Origin: Fructobacillus sp. EFB-N1
GTDB taxonomy: Bacteria; Bacillota; Bacilli; Lactobacillales; Lactobacillaceae
Direction: 5' to 3'
Length of the DNA: 64,000 bases
Assembly: GCF_001038455.1 (NCBI RefSeq)
Contig: NZ_LDUY01000005.1
Location: 1-64,000, forward strand
Below the pieces are notes generated by a model that searched no databases, had not been told where the DNA came from, and was given only the letters and a program-made list of their open reading frames with translations. The translations under genes were made by a program, and so were the position numbers. Position 1 is the first letter of the stretch. Every line of letters starts with the position of its first letter. This document shows positions 41,351 to 54,442 of this stretch, piece after piece.

Positions 41351-42756
41351 ACGAGCACCTCCTCTTGGTAGGCCATCGCCGTTTGTTCATAGCGCAAGTG
41401 ACGGTCAACAATGTTGACCAGGTCCCTTGTTTGGTGGGAAACAACCAAAATGGTCAATCCGAGCGCCTGTTGGCAGGTTTGAATCAGATTCAAAACAACC
41501 GCCACCGACTGTTCATCCAAACCCGCCAGCGGTTCATCTAAGAACAGCACTTGTGGTGCCATAATCAACATCAACAGCAGTTGCAGTTTCTTCTGCTGGC
41601 CACCCGAAAGCGTGTAGACCGACTGGTCACCCAAACCTGTTAGATGCAGGTCGGACAACCACTGGTCCAAGATCTCTTTGGTCCAAAAATCAGCATGGTG
41701 GCTTTTGGCCATCACCTGGTCCAGCTCTTCATCAACTGTGATGTTTAAGAATTGATCGGAGGCTGACTGGAACAACAGACCAACCTGGCCAAAGTAGAGA
41801 CGCGGTTTCCAGGCATGGACTTCTTGCTCCTGGTAGGTCAAAGAACCCTCATAACGATGAAGTCGTGCCAGTGTCTTCAGAACGGAAGACTTGCCGACAC
41901 CATTTGGACCGGTCAGCAAGGTAATCCCCGCAGCAAAAATTTGCAAGATATCCTGGTCTAAGACCAGGCGCTCCCCGTTTTGAATCCGCAGGTTATCAAA
42001 GCGATAGGCAGTATCTTGTGCTTGGTCACTTTCGGCAGCCGGTTTTAACACTACAGTCTGCTTTTGATAGTCATATTGGCTCCAATCATTTTCAGGAACC
42101 AGCACCAAGGCCTTCTCTTTGAGCTGATAAAACTGGCTGATTTTATCGAAGTACCCGGCCGGATCATGGTCGGAAACGAGAATGCCGTAGCCTTCCTGGC
42201 TCAGCTGTTGAAGCAACACCTGGAGATCTTCTCGCGATTGGCTATCGACAGCAGCAAACGGTTCATCAAGCAACAGATAGTCGGCCCCCAGGGCCAACAC
42301 TTCCGCCAAGGCAACCTTTTGCATTTCCCCACCGGATAAGGTGACGAAGGACCGGTCAATAAAATCAGTCAGGCCAACCTTTTCCAATGCCCAGGCAGTC
42401 TTTTGATCAATTTCGTCCTTATCTAATTCGAGATTTTCCAGTGCGAAAATAAATTCTTCTCGCACCGTTGGCATGGCAAACTGATCATCAGGATTTTGAA
42501 AGAGCAAAGCCACTCGCTTAGCCCTTTCATTCGCTTTCAGTGTGGCAATCGCCGTTTGATCAATTTCGATTTTGCCACTGACCTGACCGCCATATTGAGG
42601 ATAAAGACCCGCTAAAGCCTTTAGCAGTGTTGATTTTCCCGATCCGGAAGGCCCCATTAACAGGGTCAGGGTCTTTTTTTCAAGAGTTAAATTTAAATCA
42701 TCAATGATGGCTTGATCACGATAAGCCACCGTGAGGTTTCTGGCAGTTATTGCCAT
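41347..42756 (-). CDS. ykoD: ECF transporter ATP-binding protein with two ABC domains, YkoD-like
   Basis: 469 residues, two fused ATPase cassettes. The first has Walker A GPSGSGKST near residue 35, signature LSGGEMQK and Walker B LLLDEP. The second has Walker A GPNGVGKSS, signature LSGGQQKK and Walker B LFLDEP. The fused layout is the YkoD type, which energises uptake of the thiamine pyrimidine precursor. It has 12 nt to ykoE and a 4-nt overlap with ykoC. Confidence 0.93.
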   Translation of the reverse strand: MAITARNLTVAYRDQAIIDDLNLTLEKKTLTLLMGPSGSGKSTLLKALAGLYPQYGGQVSGKIEIDQTAIATLKANERAKRVALLFQNPDDQFAMPTVREEFIFALENLELDKDEIDQKTAWALEKVGLTDFIDRSFVTLSGGEMQKVALAEVLALGADYLLLDEPFAAVDSQSREDLQVLLQQLSQEGYGILVSDHDPAGYFDKISQFYQLKEKALVLVPENDWSQYDYQKQTVVLKPAAESDQAQDTAYRFDNLRIQNGERLVLDQDILQIFAAGITLLTGPNGVGKSSVLKTLARLHRYEGSLTYQEQEVHAWKPRLYFGQVGLLFQSASDQFLNITVDEELDQVMAKSHHADFWTKEILDQWLSDLHLTGLGDQSVYTLSGGQQKKLQLLLMLIMAPQVLFLDEPLAGLDEQSVAVVLNLIQTCQQALGLTILVVSHQTRDLVNIVDRHLRYEQTAMAYQEEVLV

Positions 42757-42768
42757 TTTTTGTCCTCC

Positions 42769-43326
42769 TTATTCGTGGGACAACAACTTTGATCGATCCA
42801 ACAACTTGGCAATCAAGTGTACCAAGACACCTGAGAAGAAGAAGATTGATAGGTAACGAACTATGAACAAAGCAACTAACAAGCCCAGCTTGTAGTGGAT
42901 GTAACCTGACTTAAAGAGGTCCCAACCAAAGCTAACGACTGTTCCAGTCAAAGTTGACAACCAAAGACCAGCAAACCAGTTCTTATAACCCGTCAAGGCG
43001 AAACCAAGTTCAGAACCGATTCCTTGGATAAAGCCTGACAAGAGCGTTCCAACCCCATAAGAACCACCCAAGAACATTTCACCGGCAGCCCCGAGCATTT
43101 CCCCAATAAAGCCTGCACCGATTTTCTTTAGGATATAAGAAGCCAATGGTCCGGCCATCATCCATACACCAAGCGTGATTTCATTCGTAAAGGCTTGCAA
43201 TCCAATCACGGCCAAGCCACTGTTAACGATTTGGTAGACCGGATCCATGATCCAGTAAATGACCGAGAAGATAACCCCAATCAAAGCCAGCAAAATCACG
43301 TTTTGTAGCGTCCACTTTTGTTTCAT
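42769..43326 (-). CDS. ykoE: ECF transporter substrate-binding (S) component, YkoE-like
   Basis: 185 residues, about six membrane helices. MKQKWTLQNVILLALIGVIF and the YGVGTLLSGFIQGIGSELGF block fit the YkoE family (hydroxymethylpyrimidine/thiamine). The TPP riboswitch just upstream confirms a thiamine-related substrate. HMP is favoured because YkoEDC has been proposed as an HMP carrier and the thi operon nearby consumes HMP. Confidence 0.92.
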   Translation of the reverse strand: MKQKWTLQNVILLALIGVIFSVIYWIMDPVYQIVNSGLAVIGLQAFTNEITLGVWMMAGPLASYILKKIGAGFIGEMLGAAGEMFLGGSYGVGTLLSGFIQGIGSELGFALTGYKNWFAGLWLSTLTGTVVSFGWDLFKSGYIHYKLGLLVALFIVRYLSIFFFSGVLVHLIAKLLDRSKLLSHE

Positions 43327-43363
43327 TATTCTCTCCTTTGCGTCCAGGGGAACAAAAAGGCAT

Positions 43364-43405
43364 TAAAAAACCACTCGCCTGGGCAGAGTCCAACACGGGT
43401 GGTCA
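43364..43405 (-). terminator. Terminator between TPP riboswitch and ykoE (expression platform)
   Basis: ACCACCCG / CGAGTGGT stem followed by six T on the minus strand, between aptamer and ykoE. Confidence 0.7.
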
Positions 43406-43420
43406 TAAAAAAAACTTGTG

Positions 43421-43496
43421 TGGATCTTCCTTCGTCGGTCTTAGCCTAACAGGTTCAATGGGTTTAATTCTCAACCAAAATGGTACCCCAGATCGC
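43421..43496 (-). promoter_or_regulatory. TPP riboswitch upstream of ykoE-ykoD-ykoC
   Basis: Minus-strand Thi-box: GATCTGGGGTACC, GGTTGAGAATTAAACCC, TTGAACCTGTTAGG and GGAAGATC closing P1. Second TPP riboswitch of the window. Confidence 0.92.
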
Positions 43497-43520
43497 TATA
43501 TTCAAATTTACTACTCTACT

Positions 43521-43549
43521 AGCTTACACTGTCTCCAACCTTTATGCAA
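43521..43549 (-). promoter_or_regulatory. Promoter of the ykoE riboswitch transcript
   Basis: Minus strand: -35 TTGCAT (43549-43544), 17-bp spacer, -10 TAAGCT (43526-43521). Confidence 0.55.
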
Positions 43550-43561
43550 GGGCTTTCAAAT

Positions 43562-43594
43562 AAAAAAGTACCCGGACGCTGTGTCCGAGTACTT
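43562..43594 (-). terminator. Terminator of the NADH oxidase gene
   Basis: AAGTACTCGGAC / GTCCGGGTACTT stem followed by TTTTAT on the minus strand. Confidence 0.9.
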
Positions 43595-43610
43595 GAAATG
43601 AAGCTAATTT

Positions 43611-44951
43611 TTACTTGTTTGCCTTGGCAACGGCAGCCATAGCAACTGATGAAACATAGTTGACTGGTTGACCGAAGTTTGGCTGGAAGAAGAAGTCTGT
43701 CATTGACAATTGATCAATTGTCATGCCGTTTTCAATCGCCAATGAAACCACGTTGGCAGCTTGTGAAATGTCATGCTTTGACAAGAAGGCAGCACCAACA
43801 ATGCGGCGAGTACCCTTTTCCCAAGTCAATGAAGCCTTAACAGGCGTGGTTGACAACATGAAATCAGGACGGTAATCTTCTGAAATTGTCACAGAATCTG
43901 CTTCAACACCCTTACGTGCTGCTGATTGAACAGTCAAACCAGTTGCAGCGTAGGCCATTTCGTACAATTCAACGGCTGATGTTGCCTGTGTACCTTGGTA
44001 AGCCATCGTTGGTTCAGCAATGTTCTTACCAACCAAGATTCCTTGACGAACAGCATTGGTTGCCAATGGAATATAGTCATCCTTTTGTGTTGGGTTGTAG
44101 AAGACGGTTGCTGAATCACCGGCAGCAAAGACATCCTTCACAGAAGTTTCCATGAACTTGTTAACCTTGATAGCACCGTTTGGCAACATATCAACTTGGT
44201 CACGGAACAAAGCAGTGTTTGGCAAGAAGCCAATACCCAAGATAGCAATGTCAGCTTCGTAAGTACCCTTATCAGTTGTGACCTTGATACCATCGGTAGT
44301 GTCTTCGAATCCTGATACCATTTGGCCAAGAGCTAATTTAACACCGTGGTCTTCATAGGCCTTTTGGAAAACAGATGAGAATTCAGGCGCTGTGTTGTTG
44401 GCCAACACACGGTCCAAACCATCAATCAAAGTCACTTCCTTATCGTTGACTGACAATTGTTCTGCTAATTCGGCACCGATATAACCAGCACCAATAACAA
44501 TCACGCGCTTAACCTTTTCAGTTACTTCCTTCAAGGCGTTGGCGTTATCCCAAGTCTTTGAATCAAAGACCTTGTCAGAATCGATTCCTGGGATACGAGG
44601 CTTGATAGCGCGTGAACCAGTAGTAATGACAATCTTATCGAAAGCTTCTTCTGACTGGGCACCAGAAACCAAGTCCTTGATGTTCAAAGTCTTTGCTTCC
44701 AAGTCTGCAGCTTCAACAAGCGTTTGCATGTGCATTGAAATGCCCTGCTTAGCCATTGAATCTGGCGTTTCGTAAAACATCTTGTCAGTTGATGAAACAT
44801 TGTCACCAATCCAAAGGGCGATTCCACATGACAAGAAAGAAACTGTTTGATTCTTTTCAAACACGTGTACCTCAGCGTCTGGGTGGTCTGCCTTAATCTG
44901 CTTAGCGGCAAACACGCCGGCGTGCGTTGAACCAATTACTGCAACTTTCAT
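43611..44951 (-). CDS. nox: Water-forming NADH oxidase
   Basis: 446 residues of the FAD-dependent class with a single redox Cys. It reduces O2 to water with NADH and regenerates NAD+. The FAD site starts MKVAVIGSTHAG with His10, and the catalytic Cys42 is in SFLSCGIALW. The NADH site is VIVIGAGYIGAELAEQL, and the second FAD motif is VFAAGDSATV. A C-terminal dimerisation domain is present. Consensus promoter and regular codon choice suggest high expression, fitting use of oxygen as an electron acceptor in heterofermenters. CoA-disulfide reductase is a related alternative. Confidence 0.92.
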   Translation of the reverse strand: MKVAVIGSTHAGVFAAKQIKADHPDAEVHVFEKNQTVSFLSCGIALWIGDNVSSTDKMFYETPDSMAKQGISMHMQTLVEAADLEAKTLNIKDLVSGAQSEEAFDKIVITTGSRAIKPRIPGIDSDKVFDSKTWDNANALKEVTEKVKRVIVIGAGYIGAELAEQLSVNDKEVTLIDGLDRVLANNTAPEFSSVFQKAYEDHGVKLALGQMVSGFEDTTDGIKVTTDKGTYEADIAILGIGFLPNTALFRDQVDMLPNGAIKVNKFMETSVKDVFAAGDSATVFYNPTQKDDYIPLATNAVRQGILVGKNIAEPTMAYQGTQATSAVELYEMAYAATGLTVQSAARKGVEADSVTISEDYRPDFMLSTTPVKASLTWEKGTRRIVGAAFLSKHDISQAANVVSLAIENGMTIDQLSMTDFFFQPNFGQPVNYVSSVAMAAVAKANK

Positions 44952-44995
44952 TAAAAGTGCCTCCTAATATATAGCTATGTGAAAATTGTAATTAA

Positions 44996-45024
44996 ATTTT
45001 ACCAATAAAACAAGGTTCTGTCAA
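44996..45024 (-). promoter_or_regulatory. Strong promoter of nox
   Basis: Minus strand: -35 TTGACA (45024-45019, perfect), 17-bp spacer, -10 TAAAAT (45001-44996). AGGAGG lies before the ATG. Confidence 0.75.
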
Positions 45025-45155
45025 TCATTTATCCAACAGTTTTCAAGAAAGTATCAAATAAAACAGAAAGACAGATAGAGTCGTTCTAAATTGTTGAAAT
45101 TCATCTTTTCGCGCCAAATCAGTCATGCCCAAAGCCATCAGACGAATCAAACGCC

Positions 45156-45533
45156 CTATTCTAAACGATTCTCCGCCTGGCGCATGTGGCTTTCATAATG
45201 GTCAATCTTATACAGCAAATGATCATGAGCAGCCTGCATTTCATTAATTCGTTCCTGCATCTCTTCTGCTTGTTCGAGCAACAGCGCTTTACGCGCGGGA
45301 ATTGTTCGGTCATCATCCTCCAGCACCATGCCAATATATTCACGCAGTCGTTCGATGGAAACACCCGCATGGCGCATTGTTTTGGCAAATTTCAATTGAT
45401 TAATGTTACGCTCGGTGAAATCGCGCAACTGATTTTCCTTGCGGGGCACCGGCATAATTAATCCAATCCGTTCGTAATAGCGAATCGTATCGTTTGTCAA
45501 TCCAGTCGCCTTCGCAGCTTCTTTAATGTTCAT
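45156..45533 (-). CDS. MerR-family regulator (AdhR/NmlR-like)
   Basis: 125 residues. The N-terminal MerR helix-turn-helix reads NIKEAAKATGLTNDTIRYYERIGLI, followed by FTERNINQLKFAKTMRHAGVSIERLREY and a coiled-coil dimerisation helix (EEMQERINEMQAAHDHLLYKID). It has no Cys at all, so metal or thiol sensing as in CueR is unlikely; AdhR-type aldehyde or electrophile sensing would need another residue. ATGA overlap with the MFS gene makes it the second gene of that operon. Two 19-bp-spacer promoters nearby carry matching dyads. Confidence 0.9.
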   Translation of the reverse strand: MNIKEAAKATGLTNDTIRYYERIGLIMPVPRKENQLRDFTERNINQLKFAKTMRHAGVSIERLREYIGMVLEDDDRTIPARKALLLEQAEEMQERINEMQAAHDHLLYKIDHYESHMRQAENRLE

Positions 45534-46858
45534 TTTTGCACCTTTCGTACTACAAAAGCGGCCACAACCACAAAAGCCATTCCCGTAAAGAAAGCCATTG
45601 TTGCTACTTGGCCACGGTAGTTTCCCGCCGTTGCCACAATCAAAGAAAGACCGATTGGGCCACCAATTTGATGGGCCGTATTCGTCAACCCTGAGGCAAT
45701 CCCAGCCAGTTCGTCAGGGGCCTGGTATAAGCCGGCCGACGTGACTGGCGCCAGAACCAAACCTTGCCCAATTCCAATCACCACCATTGGCAAGGCAAAA
45801 GCCAACCAATAACCTGAAGCAACCGCTGACAGAGCCGTCCACAGCAAACCAAGAAACAGCAATCCCTCCCCGACTAGCAGGATTAACTGATTGCCAAAAC
45901 GATTAGTCAACCTTCCTAGGGACAACGATACCACAAACTGAACGAATGTTAAGGGGAGAAAGGCTAAACCAGATTGTAACGCCGTCAAATGGTAACTCGC
46001 CTGCCAGACCTGGGGTAAAAAGAACCAATACGGCAGCATCGCCATCATAAAGAGCATGCGGGCCACGTAGGCACCTGCACGAACTCGATTATGAAACAAA
46101 ATCAAGGGCAACATTGGCTGTTTTTGCCGGCTTTCAAAGACGATAAAGCAGGCTAAAACAATAACGGCCAATAAAATCAGTAGCCACTGGTTACTGGTTA
46201 ACCCATCAATCAAGGCCGCTAATCCGATGACCGACAGAATGGCACCAATACAATCAATTTTTGTCTTTAATCCTGCTTTATTTGGGACAAAGCGAATCGT
46301 CAAACAGAACAGTAATGCCGTCAGCGGCACGTTAATCAAAAAACCGGCTTGCCAAGAAAATAACGTTGTCAGGCCACCACCAATTAATAGTCCCAGGCTA
46401 GCACCAATTAATAGTCCCAGGCTAGCACCAATCCCGGCTGTAACACCATAGTAAGCGATTGCCCGTGCACGCATTTGTCCCTGGTAATTATCCATCATCA
46501 AGGCCAAGGTGGTTGGCGCAATAATTGAAGAACCAAGCCCCTGGATAGCCCTCAGTGCAATCACGAAGGCAGCATTATCCGACAAGCCAATCAGCAATGA
46601 ACTGAGTCCAAAGATTGTGAGCCCGATTAAGAAAATTCGTTTGCGCCCCAGTAAATCCGAGAGCCGGCTCGATAATAGCAAAAAGCCGCCAAAGGTCAAT
46701 GTATAGGCGTTTGAAATCCACGACAAGGTGGAAGAAGAGAGGTCTAGGCTTTGACCAATCTCAGTTGCGCTGGTAAAAATAATGGAATTATCCATCAAAA
46801 TTAAAAAGTAAGCGAGTAAGGTGATCGGCAAGACCATCCCAAATCGTTGTTTTGTCAT
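45530..46858 (-). CDS. MFS drug exporter (DHA2/EmrB-QacA type) with an internal duplication
   Basis: 442 residues, 12 or more membrane helices. The start FGMVLPITLLAYFLILMDNSI has the motif D1-like LMDNSI, followed by motif A in SSRLSDLLGRKRIF. The helix 5 motif C region reads AGIGASLGLLIGASLGLLIGGGL: eight residues, GASLGLLI, occur twice through an exact 24-bp tandem repeat. Homologues normally have one unit, so the helix may be over-long. AAGGAG precedes the ATG. A MerR-type promoter drives it together with the MerR gene. The substrate is probably a toxic organic compound. Confidence 0.88.
   Translation of the reverse strand: MTKQRFGMVLPITLLAYFLILMDNSIIFTSATEIGQSLDLSSSTLSWISNAYTLTFGGFLLLSSRLSDLLGRKRIFLIGLTIFGLSSLLIGLSDNAAFVIALRAIQGLGSSIIAPTTLALMMDNYQGQMRARAIAYYGVTAGIGASLGLLIGASLGLLIGGGLTTLFSWQAGFLINVPLTALLFCLTIRFVPNKAGLKTKIDCIGAILSVIGLAALIDGLTSNQWLLILLAVIVLACFIVFESRQKQPMLPLILFHNRVRAGAYVARMLFMMAMLPYWFFLPQVWQASYHLTALQSGLAFLPLTFVQFVVSLSLGRLTNRFGNQLILLVGEGLLFLGLLWTALSAVASGYWLAFALPMVVIGIGQGLVLAPVTSAGLYQAPDELAGIASGLTNTAHQIGGPIGLSLIVATAGNYRGQVATMAFFTGMAFVVVAAFVVRKVQK
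46381..46428. repeat. 24-bp perfect tandem duplication inside the MFS gene
   Basis: Positions 46381-46404 are repeated exactly at 46405-46428. It is in frame and duplicates eight residues in a membrane helix. Confidence 0.95.
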
Positions 46859-46920
46859 TCTTATCTCCTTTAGCCTGGTTTCTTTTCAAAACCAAGCACT
46901 GTGTTTTCGGGTCAGTGATT

Positions 46921-46951
46921 ATTAAACACCCTGGAGTGAACTTCAAGTCAA
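46921..46951 (-). promoter_or_regulatory. MerR-type promoter and operator of the MFS-merR operon
   Basis: Minus strand: -35 TTGACT (46951-46946), 19-bp spacer, -10 TTTAAT (46926-46921). The spacer holds the dyad CTTGAAGT-TC-ACTCCAGG. Over-long spacers with a central dyad are the hallmark of MerR-activated promoters. Confidence 0.75.
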
Positions 46952-46952
46952 G

Positions 46953-46984
46953 AAAAAAACAGCCTTTTTAAAAGACTGTTTTTT
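46953..46984. terminator. Bidirectional terminator after the second DUF915 gene
   Basis: AAAAAACAG / CTGTTTTTT stem ending just before the DUF915 stop region and directly abutting the MerR-type promoter. Confidence 0.75.
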
Positions 46985-47000
46985 CGCATCAACTGTGCTG

Positions 47001-47855
47001 CTATTCCGTTAAGAACTGCTTGAGGACCTTGTTGACATCCTGATTTTCATGCAGCTTTGAATGTTGCGCATTTTTACCAGTAAATAACTTCTCCTGATAG
47101 GTACTTGGCTTACGGACAAAGTACTTCAGTGACTTCGACGCGTTATTCGTGATGGTCGAGTCTGACTCCTCCTTACCCATGCTATTGCCATAGATATTCA
47201 ACACTTTGGTCTGATTATTCTCGTAATATTGCTCCAAACCAGCTAATGCGACCTTTTTAAAATCAGTTTCAGATTGGCTGGCAGGATCTGCTAAGTTCAA
47301 ATTTGATTTTGGCCTTGGACTATCCTTCAAAAAGTTAAAGGGACCAGCAATCGCAATCTGTCGCTTCACAACTGGCAATTGATCGCTTTGCTGCACATGA
47401 TTTTTCAAGTAAAAAGCGATGGCCAAATTTCCCATTGAATGGCCAATCAGGTTCACAGACTGAATCCCCTGATTATGCAAATCTTCCATAATCTTCGTGA
47501 CCCACTGATTTGTCTTAGTAAAGTTAGTATTTCGATTATCGTTAAATTGCACCAGAATCAGTGGGTTCTGGTCCTCCTTCTTCACGGTACCACTAAAACT
47601 AACCTGGCCGCTTTTGCCAACCGTCGCATTAATTCTGCGGTTTGAATACCCTTGCTGGATTAAATACCGACTCATCGTCTGCTCGGCATTCCGGGAAGAG
47701 CCATAACCATGGAAGAAAACCGTTGCTTCGGTTGGCTTCGTATTGGAAATCGGCTTGGCTGGTTGGGTTAGCCAAACGGTTAGCCCAACTGCTAGTAGCA
47801 CAAGAATGACCGTTGAGGCACCCGCAATCGCTATCATTTTTTTATTCTTTTTCAT
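47001..47855 (-). CDS. DUF915 alpha/beta hydrolase, membrane-anchored (copy 2)
   Basis: 284 residues with the same plan as the copy at 26500-27348: basic start MKKNKK, membrane helix IAIAGASTVILVLLAVGLTV, FFHGYGSSRNAEQTM, nucleophile elbow GHSMGN, and a QHSKLHENQ end. The two proteins share long identical stretches (ATVFFHGYGSSRNAE, SVNLIGHSMGN, ALKYFVR/SLKYFVRKPSTYQE), so they are paralogues within one genome. Probably an outward-facing esterase or lipase of unknown substrate. Confidence 0.85.
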   Translation of the reverse strand: MKKNKKMIAIAGASTVILVLLAVGLTVWLTQPAKPISNTKPTEATVFFHGYGSSRNAEQTMSRYLIQQGYSNRRINATVGKSGQVSFSGTVKKEDQNPLILVQFNDNRNTNFTKTNQWVTKIMEDLHNQGIQSVNLIGHSMGNLAIAFYLKNHVQQSDQLPVVKRQIAIAGPFNFLKDSPRPKSNLNLADPASQSETDFKKVALAGLEQYYENNQTKVLNIYGNSMGKEESDSTITNNASKSLKYFVRKPSTYQEKLFTGKNAQHSKLHENQDVNKVLKQFLTE

Positions 47856-47911
47856 CTTACTCCTTTACGGCTAACCGATTGGCCAGGGGCTTTATGTCGG
47901 CGATTTAAAAT

Positions 47912-48943
47912 CTAAAAAACAATCAGAGACTTAATCGCTTCGCGCTGATCCATGGCTGCATAAGCCTGTTGAATATCTTTCAGCGCAAATTGCTTGGTAA
48001 AAACCTGACCAGGATTGATTTTGCCATCAAGGACCGCCTGCAATAACAATTCACGGTCATAGGTGGTAACCGCGGCAATTCCTCCGCGCAAGCCGATATT
48101 CTTCCAGAATAGGTTATTCGTATTCATCATTGGGTCTTGAGGAATCCCCACACGGCCAACGACGGCACCTGGACGGCCAAGTTGAACCGCAGTTGCCACA
48201 GCCTGCTCTGAGCCAACACATTCAAGAATAGCATCCGCACCGGCACCCGTTAGCGCCATCACCTGGTCAATCCCAGCTTGGTCACGATCGGCCACAATAT
48301 CGGTAGCACCAAACGCCTTACCCAGCTCTTGTCGGTCTTCGTGGCGCGACATCAAAATAATCCGCTTGGCACCACGCAGCTTGGCTGCAATCACCCCTGA
48401 GAGGCCCACAGCGCCATCGCCCATGACAACCGCCGTATCCCCCTCTTTGACTTCAGCAGTAGCCGCAGCGTGGTAACCGGTTGCCATCACATCCGACAAG
48501 GTCATCAAGGATTTCAACTGGTCATCGCTGTAGTTTGCTGGCTGACTTGGAATCTTAACCAGCGCCCAATCGGCATTCTTAAAGCCGATGTATTCCGCCT
48601 GATAACCGGTTGAGCCACCTTTATCAGGATCGAGGCAATCACCATCAAACCCTGCTAAGCAGGCCTGACAGTGACCACAACCATGAGTAAACGGTGCAAT
48701 AACAAAATCACCCGGCTGAACGTTGGAAACTTCACTACCGACCTCTTCAACGATTCCGATGGCTTCATGGCCAACCTGGCTGCCACCATCACGCTTGGAA
48801 ATACCCCGGTAGAACCAAAGGTCAGAACCACAAACTGATGCCCGAACTGTCTTGATGACGGCATCCTTCGGTCCCTGAATTGTTGGCTTATCAACCTCTT
48901 GCATCTCAACTTGCCCTGGTTTTACAAAAATCGCTGCTTTCAT
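47912..48943 (-). CDS. Zinc-dependent alcohol dehydrogenase (MDR family)
   Basis: 343 residues. Catalytic zinc ligands are Cys38 in SVCGSD and the His-Glu pair of GHEAIG. Structural zinc ligands are the four Cys of GCGHCQACLAGFDGDC. The Rossmann segment is AVVMGDGAVGLSGVIAAKL. It is close to the AdhA-type alcohol dehydrogenases that MerR-family AdhR controls in Bacillus, which reduce toxic aldehydes. It has its own MerR-type promoter about 150 nt upstream. Confidence 0.92.
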   Translation of the reverse strand: MKAAIFVKPGQVEMQEVDKPTIQGPKDAVIKTVRASVCGSDLWFYRGISKRDGGSQVGHEAIGIVEEVGSEVSNVQPGDFVIAPFTHGCGHCQACLAGFDGDCLDPDKGGSTGYQAEYIGFKNADWALVKIPSQPANYSDDQLKSLMTLSDVMATGYHAAATAEVKEGDTAVVMGDGAVGLSGVIAAKLRGAKRIILMSRHEDRQELGKAFGATDIVADRDQAGIDQVMALTGAGADAILECVGSEQAVATAVQLGRPGAVVGRVGIPQDPMMNTNNLFWKNIGLRGGIAAVTTYDRELLLQAVLDGKINPGQVFTKQFALKDIQQAYAAMDQREAIKSLIVF

Positions 48944-49250
48944 GTTTTAATACTCCTTTTTGCTGATTATGAACTTGTCTGTTTTAAAAGTAAAATTAGA
49001 CGTAGTATGGATAAATTCATTTTGACAAAACAATGGATGCTGTAATCATTGTTCATCATCCCTTGATGCATTTATCTGTCACTAACAACACTATCTTATG
49101 CCCTGAAGTCGACTCTAAGTCAAGAACGCTTTTCTATTTTATAGCAATAAAAAGTAAAATTGTCTACCCTGCGATGGCAAACGTGTCAAATTTTGATTTT
49201 TTCAACTACCCAGTTCTCATTCCTGCCACAGCCAACCATCAAGCGCAAAC
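48944..49250. other. Intergenic region between zinc ADH and hup, no gene
   Basis: It holds the MerR-type promoter at 49093-49123, a long 5' leader of about 150 nt for the dehydrogenase with no structure I can name, and AT-rich sequence up to the hup terminator. The reading frame 49033-49350 on the plus strand has no ribosome site and runs through the hup terminator. Confidence 0.5.
49093..49123 (-). promoter_or_regulatory. MerR-type promoter and operator of the zinc alcohol dehydrogenase
   Basis: Minus strand: -35 TTGACT (49123-49118), 19-bp spacer, -10 TAAGAT (49098-49093). The spacer dyad is CTTAGAGT-CG-ACTTCAGG, the same design as at 46921-46951. Confidence 0.7.
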
Positions 49251-49278
49251 AAAAAAGCACACTCAGCTGAGTGTGCTT
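49251..49278 (-). terminator. Terminator of hup
   Basis: AAGCACACTCAGCTGAGTGTGCTT perfect dyad (49255-49278) with a T-run on the minus strand. Confidence 0.9.
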
Positions 49279-49296
49279 AAATATGAAAAGGTTCGC

Positions 49297-49572
49297 TTAC
49301 TTAACGGCGTCCTTCAATGCCTTACCAGGCTTGAATGCAGGAACCTTTGATGCAGGAATTTGGATTTCTTCCTTAGTTTGTGGGTTACGACCCTTACGAG
49401 CTGCACGTTCACGAACTTCAAAGTTACCAAAACCAATCAATTGAACCTTTTCGCCCTTCTTCAAAGCGTCTTCAATTGATGACAAGACAGCGGCAACTGC
49501 CTTGTCTGCGTCCTTCTTTGTTAAGCCAGTCTTCATTGCGACTGAATCGATCAATTCTTGCTTGTTTGCCAT
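49297..49572 (-). CDS. hup: DNA-binding protein HU
   Basis: 91 residues, the full HU fold: [23 protein letters not shown] for the dimer helices, then [20 protein letters not shown] and the flexible beta-arm [19 protein letters not shown] with the intercalating Pro. It compacts and bends DNA. GAGGAG precedes the ATG. It lies downstream of der as in many Lactobacillaceae. A GCTAACG / CGTTAGC dyad at 49610-49630 lies in its leader. Confidence 0.97.
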
Positions 49573-49786
49573 TCCTTTTCTCCTCGCTAATAATTAATTT
49601 AGAATATCCGCTAACGTGACAATCGTTAGCAGCTTGGGAACGCTACCGTGGCAACTTCCATAAAGATAGGATAGCACATGTAAATTAAAATGTGTAGGCA
49701 TAAAGCCCAATTTCATGCGGTAATTGCGGTTTTCCGCACATTTGCAAGTGAATCCTCACAGTACTGAAACTTTCAACGATAAAACG

Positions 49787-51097
49787 TTACTTTCGCTGAC
49801 GAATAATCAGCTTGATCGGCGTTCCAGAGAAGTCAAACGCGGCTCGAATTTGGTTCTCTAGGAAACGCTGGTATGAAAAATGCATCAGTTCAACGTCGTT
49901 GACAAAGACAACAATCGTTGGTGGTTCGATTGCCACTTGAGTGGCGTAATAAACACGCAAACGGCGACCGTTATCAGATGGTGCCGGATTAGTAGCCAAA
50001 GCATCCATCAAGACATCATTCAATGTTGATGATGAAACCCGCTTCTGATGGTTGTCATTTACGGCCAAAATTAAATCAGGCAGGCGGTCTAAGCGCTGAC
50101 CAGTCTTCGCTGAAACAAAGACAATTGGTGCATAGTCCAAAAACTTAAATTCGTCGCGAATCAAGTTTTCAAAATCAGTCATGGTATGCGTGTCTTTTTC
50201 GATGGCATCCCACTTATTGATAACAATCACCAAGGCCTTCCCGGCCTCATGCGCATACCCCGCAACGTGCTTATCTTGCTCACGAATACCGGTTTCAGCA
50301 TCCAAGACCATCAAGACCACTTGTGATTCATCAATGGCCTTCATGGCCCGCATGACCGAATAACGTTCCGTATTTTCGTAAACCTTACCACGCTTACGAA
50401 TTCCGGCCGTATCAACCATCACAAATTCATCACCCTCAGAGGTAATAAAACGCGTGTCAATCGCATCACGGGTCGTGCCTTCAATATTTGAGACAATCAT
50501 CCGATCTTCGCCCAGGATGGCGTTAACGATTGATGATTTTCCGACGTTTGGGCGCCCAATAATCGAGAACCGAACGGCGTCATCGTCTTGTTCTGCGGCT
50601 TCATCTGGGAAATGCTTGACGATTTCATCCAAAACATCACCCAAACCAATTCCGTGTAATCCAGATACGGGATAAGGGTCGCCCATTCCTAATGAATAGA
50701 AGTCATAAATATCTGCCCGCATTTCAGGATTATCGACCTTATTGACCGCCAAAACAACTGGCTTATCAGTACCATAAAGCAAATTAGCCACGGCTTGGTC
50801 ATCGGCTGTCAGGCCTTCTCGACCAGAAACAACCATCAAAATGACGTCAGCTTCATCAATGGCTAATTCAACCTGGGCACGAATTTCCGTTAAAAATGGG
50901 GCATTTCCCATTTCCAACCCTCCGGTATCAATCATCCGGAAGTCATAATTTAGCCATTCTGCCCGTGCGTACAAACGGTCACGAGTAACCCCTGGCATAT
51001 CCTCGACAATGGCGATTCGATCGCCAACAATGCGGTTAAATAGCGTGGACTTTCCAACATTTGGACGACCCACTACGGCTACAATCGGTGCTGCCAT
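49787..51097 (-). CDS. der: Ribosome biogenesis GTPase Der (EngA)
   Basis: 436 residues from ATG 51097 (AAGGAG upstream; the reading from 51115 adds six residues without support). Two GTPase domains in tandem: first [19 protein letters not shown]; second [22 protein letters not shown]-terminal KH-like domain follows. It is needed for 50S subunit maturation. Confidence 0.97.
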
Positions 51098-51116
51098 ATT
51101 CCCGCTCCTTTCCAAT

Positions 51117-51141
51117 AAAAAAAGACTGGATAACCAGCCTT
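51117..51141 (-). terminator. Hairpin between rpsA and der
   Basis: AGGCTGG / CCAGTCT stem with a T-run on the minus strand, 15 nt after the rpsA stop. Readthrough to der is likely because no strong der promoter is seen. Confidence 0.7.
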
Positions 51142-51155
51142 TCCATTTTTAAATC

Positions 51156-52346
51156 TTACAACTTGTCGCCGAAGATGTCGCCCAAAGTAGCGGCACCTTC
51201 ATCGTCTTGTTGGAAGGCTGCCATGTCAGCACGTGAAGCGCCACGGTTGTCATCGCGGTCTTCACGTTGGTTGGCTGGCTTTTCTTCCAAAGCCTTCATT
51301 GACAATGAGATACGTTCTTCGGCTGGCTTAACATCCAACACTTGAACCTTTACCTTGTCACCAGACTTCAAAACGTCGGCTGGGTTTTCAACACGCTTGT
51401 GTGAAATTTGTGAAACGTGAACCAATCCTTCAATACCAGGGAAGATTTCAACGAATGCACCAAAGTCCTTTACGCGCTTAACTGTTCCTTCCAGAACAGT
51501 ACCAGCTGGGGCCTTTTCTGCAACTTCATCCCAAGGACCTGGCTGGGTTGCCTTGATTGAAAGTGAGATACGTCCACGATCAGTGTCCAAGGCCAAAATC
51601 TTAACGTTAACCTTTTCACCCTTTGACAAAACATCTGATGGGTTCTTAACACGGTCATGTGAGATTTCAGAAACGTGAACCAATCCGTCCACGCCGCCCA
51701 AGTCAACGAAAGCACCGAAGTCAGTCAAACGAGCAACAGTTCCTTCAACAACTTCGCCAACAGTCAAACGGCTGAATGCTTCAGCCAACTTTTCGGCACG
51801 TTCTTGGGCTGCAACAGCCTTACGTGACAAAATCAAACGGGCCTTGGCTGGGTCGATTTCGATTACTTCTGCCTTGATGTCTTGTCCCTTGAATTGGTTC
51901 AAGTCTGAAACAAAGCGTTCTGCAACCATTGATGCAGGTACGAAACCACGGATACCAGCAACATCAACAATCAAACCACCACGAACAGCGTTGATAACCT
52001 TCGCATCAACAACATCACCTTCGTTAAATGACAATGATTCCCAAGCCTTACGGGCTTCCAATCGCTTCTTTGACAACAAGTAGGCAACGCCTTCCTTGTC
52101 ACTCGTTACGTTCGAAACAACAACAGTTTCGATGGTGTCACCGACCTTCAAATCGTCGGCCAAATTGACGCTACGATCGTCAGAGTACTCACGCGCTGGC
52201 ACAACTCCTTCTTCTCCGGTGTGAAGACCGATAACTGCTTGGTTATCGTTGTCGATTGCTAGCACTTCGCCAGTTACGACGTCCCCTACCTTAATTTGGT
52301 CAGCACTTTCCAGAGCTGCTAATAATTCGCTGTTAGTATCACTCAT
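51156..52346 (-). CDS. rpsA: S1-domain RNA-binding protein (ribosomal protein S1-like, YpfD)
   Basis: 396 residues, four S1 domains starting near residues 18, 105, 190 and 275. The last two show the canonical GTVARLTDFGAFVDLGG...GLVHVSEIS and GTVKRVKDFGAFVEI...GLVHVSQIS. The acidic tail is REDRDDNRGASRADMAAF. Gram-positive S1 homologues are shorter than the six-domain E. coli protein, as here. The order cmk-rpsA-der is conserved in Firmicutes. Confidence 0.93.
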   Translation of the reverse strand: MSDTNSELLAALESADQIKVGDVVTGEVLAIDNDNQAVIGLHTGEEGVVPAREYSDDRSVNLADDLKVGDTIETVVVSNVTSDKEGVAYLLSKKRLEARKAWESLSFNEGDVVDAKVINAVRGGLIVDVAGIRGFVPASMVAERFVSDLNQFKGQDIKAEVIEIDPAKARLILSRKAVAAQERAEKLAEAFSRLTVGEVVEGTVARLTDFGAFVDLGGVDGLVHVSEISHDRVKNPSDVLSKGEKVNVKILALDTDRGRISLSIKATQPGPWDEVAEKAPAGTVLEGTVKRVKDFGAFVEIFPGIEGLVHVSQISHKRVENPADVLKSGDKVKVQVLDVKPAEERISLSMKALEEKPANQREDRDDNRGASRADMAAFQQDDEGAATLGDIFGDKL

Positions 52347-52521
52347 GACGTCAAACGTCCTCCTACAATTTACACTTATAAGGGTATTTTATCAGAGAGT
52401 AGCTGATTTTCCTAGTCTAATTTTAAAAAAATTAGGACTAGACCAACTACTTCGTCTAAATGTTTCGTAAAAACACGAACCGTTTTCCCTATTGCTTTCT
52501 ATTTTAACAGATTTTTCTAAA

Positions 52522-52547
52522 ATAAAAAGACCACCTTACTGGTGATC
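52522..52547 (-). terminator. Terminator overlapping the cmk stop
   Basis: GATCACC / GGTGGTC stem (one G-U) includes the cmk stop codon and is followed by TTTTTATTTT on the minus strand. Confidence 0.7.
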
Positions 52548-53213
52548 TTTGATAATTTGCTTGATTGTGGCCACGACCTGGTCAATACTTTGGCCAGTAG
52601 TGTCGACCGTTAGCGCATCTTCGGCCTTTGTCAGCGGTGAAATGGAACGATGGGAATCCTTATAATCCCGCTCCTCAATTTCCTTTTTCAGGGTTTCAAA
52701 ATCAGGGTTCATCCCTTTGGCCTGATTTTCCTTGAAACGACGCTCAGCGCGTTCATCGACTGAAGCCACCAAGAAAATTTTCACTTGAGCATCTGGCAAA
52801 ACGGTTGTGCCAATATCACGGCCATCCATGATTACTGGTTGCTGATCAGTCAAAGCGCGCTGACGGTCAACTAAATTAGCTCGAACCGCCTGATAGGAAG
52901 AAACCAAAGAAACGTTGTTCGTAATTTCAGTTGAACGAATTTCTTCCGTTACTTCTTGCCCATTCAACAAAACATGTTGCAGTGGTTCGCCCGGTAAAAA
53001 AGCAATTTCAATTTTTGGTAGCAAGGCAACAATCCCCGCCTCATCTTCGTATGCAAGTCCCGCCTGTTTGGCCGCCAAGGTAATGGCGCGATACATCGCA
53101 CCAGTGTCAACGTAAACATACTTTAAATCGGTCGCTAAAATTTTAGCAATCGTTGATTTTCCAGCTGATGCTGGTCCATCAATTGCAACTTGAAAATGAG
53201 CAGGTTGAGTCAT
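52536..53213 (-). CDS. cmk: Cytidylate kinase
   Basis: 225 residues. It phosphorylates CMP and dCMP with ATP. P-loop GPASAGKST near residue 14, then [16 protein letters not shown], the NMP-binding region, [14 protein letters not shown] and [18 protein letters not shown] precedes the ATG with a longish spacer. First of the cmk-rpsA-der-hup cluster, 18 nt after the LysM gene. Confidence 0.96.
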
Positions 53214-53231
53214 AGGGATTAAAATTTCCTC

Positions 53232-53786
53232 TTACTTAATTCTCAAAGCTTGTCCAGCAAACTTTGAATAGTTTTGAGCAGTAACACCAGGATTCAAAGC
53301 ATAAATCTGGTCAGTGGTTGTACCATGAGTTACCGCAAAGTTATAGAGCGTTTGGTTAGCACCCAAGGTCGCTGTATTGGCAGCCGCCGCAGAAGCTGCT
53401 GCTTGGTCATCACTTGACTGGGCTGCCTGGCTTTGACTTGACTGCGCAGCAGACTCCGATTGACTAGCTGATGTAGCTGATTGACTAGTTGAAGACTGAG
53501 CAGCGCTGGTTGCATCAGACGATTGTGAACTAGCAGAAGACGTTGCCGACTGGCTAGTTTTTTTGGAACTATTAGAACTAGATGTTGTCTTCACCATTTT
53601 TGGTGAATTTTTCACCAATCCATAAACAGGCGCCGACGCTAATAAGACTAACGACAGCAAAACCAAAAGCACGACGAGTCCGCCGTGGCTTTTTGGCCGT
53701 GGTTCTTTTTTAGGATGCTCCTGATTTTCATGCTGGCGATCAAAACGTTGCCGGCGCGATAATGTTGGTGCTGTTTGGTCGTTCAT
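53232..53786 (-). CDS. Membrane-anchored LysM-domain protein
   Basis: 184 residues from ATG 53786 (AGGAGG upstream). A basic cytoplasmic start is followed by a single membrane helix (LVVLLVLLSLVLLASAPVYG), a 75-residue low-complexity Ser/Gln/Ala/Thr linker and a C-terminal LysM domain (TLYNFAVTHGTTTDQIYALNPG) that binds peptidoglycan. This is the form often found next to cmk in lactobacilli. It is probably an envelope protein; no catalytic domain is present. Confidence 0.88.
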   Translation of the reverse strand: MNDQTAPTLSRRQRFDRQHENQEHPKKEPRPKSHGGLVVLLVLLSLVLLASAPVYGLVKNSPKMVKTTSSSNSSKKTSQSATSSASSQSSDATSAAQSSTSQSATSASQSESAAQSSQSQAAQSSDDQAAASAAAANTATLGANQTLYNFAVTHGTTTDQIYALNPGVTAQNYSKFAGQALRIK

Positions 53787-53860
53787 TTTCAAGACCTCCT
53801 ATGAGTTCGTTCTTAAGTCAAGTCTAACACGGAAGGTTGCTTAAAAATGATAACCTTTTC

Positions 53861-54442
53861 TTAAGAACGAAAGCTTTTCTTAAAGGGTGCCAAGATTGCA
53901 ACAACCATCACAGAAACGATAAACCAAATCAAACCTTCCAAAAGATTGAATGGGACAACCATCCCCCACAAGTAAACTTTGATGCCAATAAACTTAGCAA
54001 TATCGAAGTTTGCAAAGCGGGCATAGAGTGGAATGGCCCAAACAATGTTGACAAGGTACGCCATCACGGTCATGGCAACAGCGGCAACAATCGCACTAAC
54101 AGACTGCCATAACCACTTTGGCCAGCGAACTTCAACTTTGACCATGACTGCCAAAACCAACAAGAATGTCAAAGCAATCACAAAGTTAACCGGCATTCCA
54201 ATATAGGTATTGGCGCCTTCGTTAAACAAAATCAGTTTCAACAGCGTCCGAATAACTAGCACCCAAACGGCTGAACCTAACCCTAACCAGGAAAAGGCTA
54301 GGAAAGCGGGCACAATTGAAAAATCAATTTTCAAAAATGATGCGCCAGGAATGATCGCAATTTGTGGAAAAATCATCAATGCAAAGGAAATTGCACTGAA
54401 AACGGCGACCAGGGTGAGTTTCTTAGTAGTGTTTCTTGTCAT
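53861..54442 (-). CDS. ribU: Riboflavin ECF transporter S component RibU
   Basis: 193 residues, six membrane helices. LVAVFSAISFALMIFPQ with IIPGASFLKIDFSIVPAFLA is the RibU riboflavin-site signature. It captures riboflavin and works with a shared EcfAA'T module not present in this window. It stands directly behind an FMN riboswitch. AAAGGAG lies 7 nt before the ATG. Confidence 0.95.
   Translation of the reverse strand: MTRNTTKKLTLVAVFSAISFALMIFPQIAIIPGASFLKIDFSIVPAFLAFSWLGLGSAVWVLVIRTLLKLILFNEGANTYIGMPVNFVIALTFLLVLAVMVKVEVRWPKWLWQSVSAIVAAVAMTVMAYLVNIVWAIPLYARFANFDIAKFIGIKVYLWGMVVPFNLLEGLIWFIVSVMVVAILAPFKKSFRS

Follow-up and report, generated by a model that had tools for sequence, protein, structure and literature searches.

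Two MerR-type promoters with a shared operator in Fructobacillus sp. EFB-N1 and the probable detoxification regulon that they control

Metal-sensing proteins of the MerR family carry metal-binding Cys residues, and BltR and BmrR are MerR-type proteins that are encoded near a drug pump gene, act at a long-spacer promoter and have a larger effector domain. AdhR (YraB) of Bacillus subtilis, which belongs to the same family, reportedly recognises the consensus CTTAAAG-N4-CTTTAAG, which the operator described here would fit. The available portions of two papers describe MerR regulators as acting on promoters with 19–20-bp spacers, which they untwist (PMC9909328, PMC5045206). Within the NmlR/AdhR clade the sensing Cys (Cys52 in AdhR) is given as absolutely conserved, and B. 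subtilis AdhR as targeting a dehydrogenase and CMD, in extracts of PMC4776306; pneumococcal NmlR is Cys-based in the excerpted part of PMC10151825, and a regulon reconstruction for lactic acid bacteria, as far as its extracts go, includes NmlR among the Streptococcaceae regulons (PMC3616900).

The regulator investigated here is encoded in a 64-kb stretch of DNA (the window), and by sequence NmlR/AdhR is the nearest described group. The two systems have in common the MerR family, an operator between the promoter hexamers and a dehydrogenase target, while CMD targets occur here in relatives only; the NmlR model (NF041849) is also the best NCBIfam match of the regulator, at 133.6 bits and thus under the cut-off of 175. 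The differences are that the regulator has Thr at the position of Cys52 and no Cys anywhere, that the dehydrogenase, although linked to the system through the adh operator, scores 107.8 against the class III dehydrogenase model and so falls far under the cut-off of 543.95, and that an MFS partner shares the operon with the regulator. Because the protein lies under the family cut-off and has no Cys, we do not assign it to NmlR/AdhR; it probably acts as an activator of the MerR type, with a gene set resembling that of AdhR. The closest solved sequence is a Listeria MerR-family protein (PDB 3gp4; match over residues 1–124, E 8.4e-28), which has Gln instead of Cys at position 52 and to our knowledge no known function. 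The system resembles BltR/BmrR in that a MerR-type regulator adjoins a drug pump gene at a long-spacer promoter, but differs from them in having a dehydrogenase as a target and no effector domain.

According to Pfam, the regulator consists of MerR domains alone (PF13411, 62.9 bits against a cut-off of 21.6; PF09278, 38.4 bits against 25.4), and its sequence bears out the original observation that it contains no Cys. The lack of Cys and scores under the cut-offs argue against a metal-sensing MerR protein of the CueR, ZntR or CadR kind, and the lack of a separate effector-binding domain in 125 residues against a BmrR-type multidrug regulator. The genome encodes one further PF13411 protein, which has 112 residues, is GlnR-like and has its gene behind one for a DNA polymerase I-like protein (both named by eye), so that within this assembly, rated 98% complete, no rival classical MerR protein is found for the two sites. 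The closest named regulator, from Fructobacillus tropaeoli F214-1, is 95% identical. A search of a plasmid collection returned 43 records, and among the 15 matches listed all were below 60% identity, so that no close plasmid-borne copy was seen. The regulator of Enterococcus thailandicus (L093:5036-6375) is 72% identical to the one in the window and lies about 1 kb downstream of an operator with a single mismatch, which suggests a transfer between families.

The genes and sites are listed in Table 1. They are all read from the minus strand, in the order adh, DUF915 hydrolase, hairpin, MFS-merR promoter, MFS and merR.

Table 1 Genes, promoters, predicted operators and hairpin of the two transcription units
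Feature	Position	Strand	Product length	Details
adh promoter	49093..49123	−		TTGACT-TAGAGTCGACTTCAGGGCA-TAAGAT, read from 49123 to 49093; −35 TTGACT 49123-49118; 19-bp spacer; −10 TAAGAT 49098-49093
adh operator dyad	49102..49119	−		CTTAGAGT-CG-ACTTCAGG
Zinc-type medium-chain alcohol/aldehyde dehydrogenase (adh)	47912..48943	−	343 aa	Pfam PF08240, PF00107
DUF915 alpha/beta hydrolase	47001..47855	−	284 aa	PF06028, E 1.6e-60
Terminator-like hairpin	46953..46985	−		Between hydrolase gene and MFS −35
MFS-merR promoter	46921..46951	−		TTGACT-TGAAGTTCACTCCAGGGTG-TTTAAT, read from 46951 to 46921; −35 TTGACT 46951-46946; 19-bp spacer; −10 TTTAAT 46926-46921
MFS-merR operator dyad	46930..46947	−		CTTGAAGT-TC-ACTCCAGG
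DHA2-like MFS efflux transporter	45530..46858	−	442 aa	PF07690
MerR-family regulator (merR)	45156..45533	−	125 aa	PF13411 and PF09278; no Cys

Both promoters had been proposed to combine TTGACT, a 19-bp spacer, a −10 hexamer and a matching dyad, and the sequence reads exactly so, with the MFS start codon 62 bp downstream of its promoter and the adh start codon 149 bp from its −10, behind a long leader. The dyad had been placed at the centre of the spacer, but its own centre, by count, lies 7 bp past the end of the −35 in both promoters, and the final two −35 bases fall inside it; in each dyad 6 of the 9 base pairs are symmetric. A dyad within a 19-bp-spacer promoter, centred 7 bp from the −35, corresponds to the geometry of the MerR family, for which a range of 7–8 bp applies (operator geometry taken for comparison from the available part of PMC5045206).

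Within three mismatches, the pattern TTGACTTRRAGTNNACTYYAGG occurs in the window at exactly the two promoter sites, compared to a mean of 0.02 per shuffle over 100 shuffles. The corresponding search of the 1.64-Mb genome with TTGACTTRRAGTNNACTYYARG gave six places, two of them exact and four with 3 mismatches, among which is the adh site on the opposite strand; the reversed control at the same threshold had no match in the genome. Within two mismatches the MFS-merR and adh promoters are the sole matches genome-wide, and the predicted operator is restricted to them. Since the pattern was derived from these two sites and is fitted to them, its rarity is no independent test, which is instead provided by conservation in other species.

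The promoter hexamers and their spacing are much less telling. A genome scan for TTGACT-N19-TANNNT, the search originally proposed, found 23 matches against 17 for its reversed control and failed to pick up the MFS promoter with its TTTAAT as −10 hexamer. On its own the hexamer pattern is uninformative; the information lies in the dyad. The accompanying claim that the other promoters of the window have 17-bp spacers holds for the two other matches scoring at least 11 of 12, but when 34 upstream regions were scanned naively the outcome was mixed, with top candidates scoring at least 9 having spacers of 17 (n = 9), 18 (n = 2) and 19 bp (n = 10, the MFS promoter among them). In that scan the adh operator promoter reached 9 of 12 and came third in its own region, with two candidates above it. 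As a 19-bp spacer is so often found, and the adh operator promoter only in third place, spacing alone constitutes weak evidence, and the case rests on the dyad and its conservation. A scan of positions 42000–54000 for promoters with 16–18-bp spacers found 17, against a mean of 16.7 in shuffles, and thus argues in neither direction.

With regard to the genes themselves, the nearest solved chains of the dehydrogenase are 5yln and 4cpd, followed by NADP-dependent alcohol dehydrogenases, and its coenzyme region has Ser and then Arg at the position of an Asp in 5yln, which suggests NADP(H) as the coenzyme. The DUF915 hydrolase gene follows 56 bp behind adh and is probably on the same transcript. 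A DUF915 relative directly follows a separate operator both in G005 (2 mismatches) and in G010 (1 mismatch), two of the 13 genomes of the genus compared below, which supports the hydrolase as a very likely member of the regulon; the original prediction had left it out. The hairpin behind it has a 15-bp stem, and its 61-nt fold reaches −17.6 kcal/mol, a value attained by 3 of 200 shuffles; it is absent from a terminator scan that requires 3 G-C pairs. As it ends just ahead of the MFS −35, the two units look separate. The second unit encodes the MFS protein, whose best NCBIfam model, TIGR00711, gives 188.8 bits (under the cut-off of 230.2), and the regulator, whose gene has a 4-bp overlap with the MFS gene at the end of the latter. 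That the MFS protein might export the very molecule that the dehydrogenase reduces is a conjecture. The MFS gene contains a perfect 24-bp in-frame tandem duplication (46380-46427), by which the eight residues GASLGLLI occur twice; it is not present in the four relatives read, and may be detrimental to the pump or else stem from an error in the assembly.

Conservation across the genus is clearest in the diverged genomes G003, G006 and G008, where the MFS promoter block retains 28, 27 and 27 of 31 positions against 22, 42 and 39 of 120 in the flanks, and the adh block 24, 22 and 21 of 31 against 25, 38 and 40 of 120. The closer G001 and G002 offer little discrimination, both in the MFS block (30 and 30 of 31; flanks 89 and 110 of 120) and in the adh block (26 and 28 of 31; flanks 89 and 118 of 120). 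Within two mismatches the operator is found in 12 of 13 genomes of the genus, and the control in none of the 13. An adh gene of at least 84% identity is present in 10 genomes, and in 9 of these an operator (at most 3 mismatches) stands ahead of it, directly or at the head of the cluster. No operator precedes the further adh copies of G004 (80%) and G002 (71%), or the sole adh relative of G005, which is 61% identical and split over two ORFs. The MFS-merR pair of G005 is likewise only 41% and 48% identical. These comparisons support the original prediction of a MerR-family regulator with one operator in two MerR-type promoters, one of them before its own operon.

Some of these genes are interrupted. 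In F. tropaeoli F214-1 (G002) the MFS gene is split over two ORFs (L102:3599-4900), as is the adh gene of G001 (L100:6496-7522), which belongs to the 9 of 10 with an operator. Together with the eight-residue duplication described above, this indicates that the pathway may be decaying in the species group, sequencing errors being the alternative for the two-ORF genes. A 15.9-kb contig of G002 (L103:2035-4702) carries a CMD relative (52%) and the 71% adh paralog, with no operator in front.

In a wider comparison, we took 54 regulator loci, that of the window included, and found an operator within 2 mismatches in 35, within 4 in 44 and none in 10; these counts are not independent, because the rows are related. 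For a subset of 30 loci the true pattern occurred within 2 mismatches in 20, and the reversed pattern never with fewer than 5. The aligned regulators have Cys at position 52 in 11 cases and another residue in 43 (the window regulator included), so the lack of Cys52 is the commoner state and not special to our protein. On a tree of the 54 regulators, whose long branches leave the deep order unsure, the 11 Cys52 rows need 4 changes, at least 3 of them forced by well-supported branches, and Cys52 has thus changed more than once. The genes behind operators in relatives include those for CMD, cupin, aldo/keto reductase, NmrA-type, SDR, DUF2255, flavodoxin, FMN reductase and DUF915 proteins, according to a domain scan of 19 proteins that includes one without a match and an acetolactate decarboxylase outside the operons.

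Three groups of MerR proteins adjoin this same operator type. The genome of the window has the first, Cys-free group alone, and no CMD relative of the second-group kind was found in it at E 1e-10. The second group, in G001, G003 and G005, lacks Cys52 and is encoded divergently from a CMD gene that cupin and reductase genes follow (assigned by Pfam for the cupin and full-length reductase of G003 and for a reductase fragment in G005, and by position and size in G001). The third is a different MerR protein, with Cys at position 52 and 27–31% identity to that of the window, which adjoins the adh cluster in G007, G009 and G011. Three groups at one operator type suggest a possible exchange of regulators on a shared operator, and one could speculate, with rather less than even confidence, that the Fructobacillus operator is a shared address for which the regulator is exchangeable, with three MerR groups serving one operator type and the same dehydrogenase being passed between them.

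The genome without the operator, G004, has no relative of the window regulator or of the third group at E 1e-10. Its single PF13411 match covers profile range 3–67, as does the GlnR-like protein present in all 13 genomes, whereas each of the 12 operator-bearing genomes has one to three PF13411 matches beyond the GlnR-like protein. The 400 bp before its adh contain nothing better than 7 mismatches to the operator; there is instead, 46 bp upstream of the start codon, a candidate promoter of the sequence TTGCCA-N17-GATAAT (L105:3755-3895). Loss of the regulator would favour a promoter of this kind, here predicted with a 17-bp spacer; the apparent coupling of the two losses, of regulator and of operator, comes from one genome, rated 91% complete.

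A different view of the locus, which we consider unlikely, sees in the regulator a broad drug sensor with the MFS pump as its main target, and in the dehydrogenase a redox enzyme that the operator has captured. The operator indeed heads the MFS-merR pair in G000-G003, G005, G006 and G008 (in G002 with MFS in two ORFs), the MFS protein resembles DHA2 drug exporters, and adh is not an obligate partner, since the regulator is present in G010 and G012, where no adh relative was found at E 1e-60. The same two genomes, however, have no MFS relative between operator and regulator, and in G010 a flavodoxin-type gene occupies that place, with one for an aldo/keto reductase behind; moreover, the operator precedes adh in 9 of 10 genomes, and the 125-residue protein lacks a separate effector domain.

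Considerably less credible is the idea that the regulator is a genuine ortholog of NmlR/AdhR and detects formaldehyde or methylglyoxal through a Cys thiol. A Cys-based form is contradicted by the sequence, with its Thr at the decisive position, and both the regulator and the dehydrogenase fall under the respective cut-offs, even though NmlR is the best model and the dehydrogenase, with CMD in relatives, recalls the AdhR regulon (extracts of PMC4776306). The many 19-bp candidates of the naive promoter scans and the broken genes of close relatives could also be taken to mean that the dyads are chance matches or relics and the promoters constitutive; given the conservation, the control counts and the rarity in the whole genome, we find this highly improbable.

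We thus consider it likely that the locus is a four-gene, two-transcript MerR-type detoxification regulon. By analogy with the MerR family, the regulator would sit as a dimer on the dyads of both 19-bp-spacer promoters and keep them weak, until a small reactive organic compound binds to it, the spacer is untwisted and both hexamers come within reach of RNA polymerase. Induction would switch on the first unit, with the zinc dehydrogenase, which probably would reduce the compound with NADPH, and the DUF915 hydrolase, and the second unit, with the MFS exporter and the regulator itself; co-expression of the four genes is what the gene order would predict. Some observations weigh against this reading, namely the long adh leader with two candidates outranking the operator promoter, the 10 of 54 loci without an operator, the missing adh of G010 and G012 and the signs of decay in the species group. 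The signal would most likely be a reactive organic molecule, with a carbonyl or quinone as the foremost candidates. The organic or aldehyde signal originally proposed is plausible, and an electrophile would fit the operators of relatives, which head reductases and detoxification-type genes: the CMD, cupin, aldo/keto reductase, SDR, flavodoxin and DUF915 genes behind them point to the detoxification of reactive carbonyls or quinones.

A literature search gave no title or abstract about this Fructobacillus regulon among the matches listed, with subscription papers mostly outside its scope. The system is a real but ordinary MerR mini-regulon of familiar layout, and a new member within the MerR family. 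It offers a compact and testable two-promoter regulon in a fructose-loving genus of lactic acid bacteria, and relatives with and without Cys, all at the same type of operator, provide a natural contrast for studying how MerR proteins sense carbonyl-type compounds in the absence of a thiol. If the shared-operator reading is true, a large set of Cys-free relatives of NmlR/AdhR would recognise this same DNA while sensing carbonyl-type compounds by non-thiol means.
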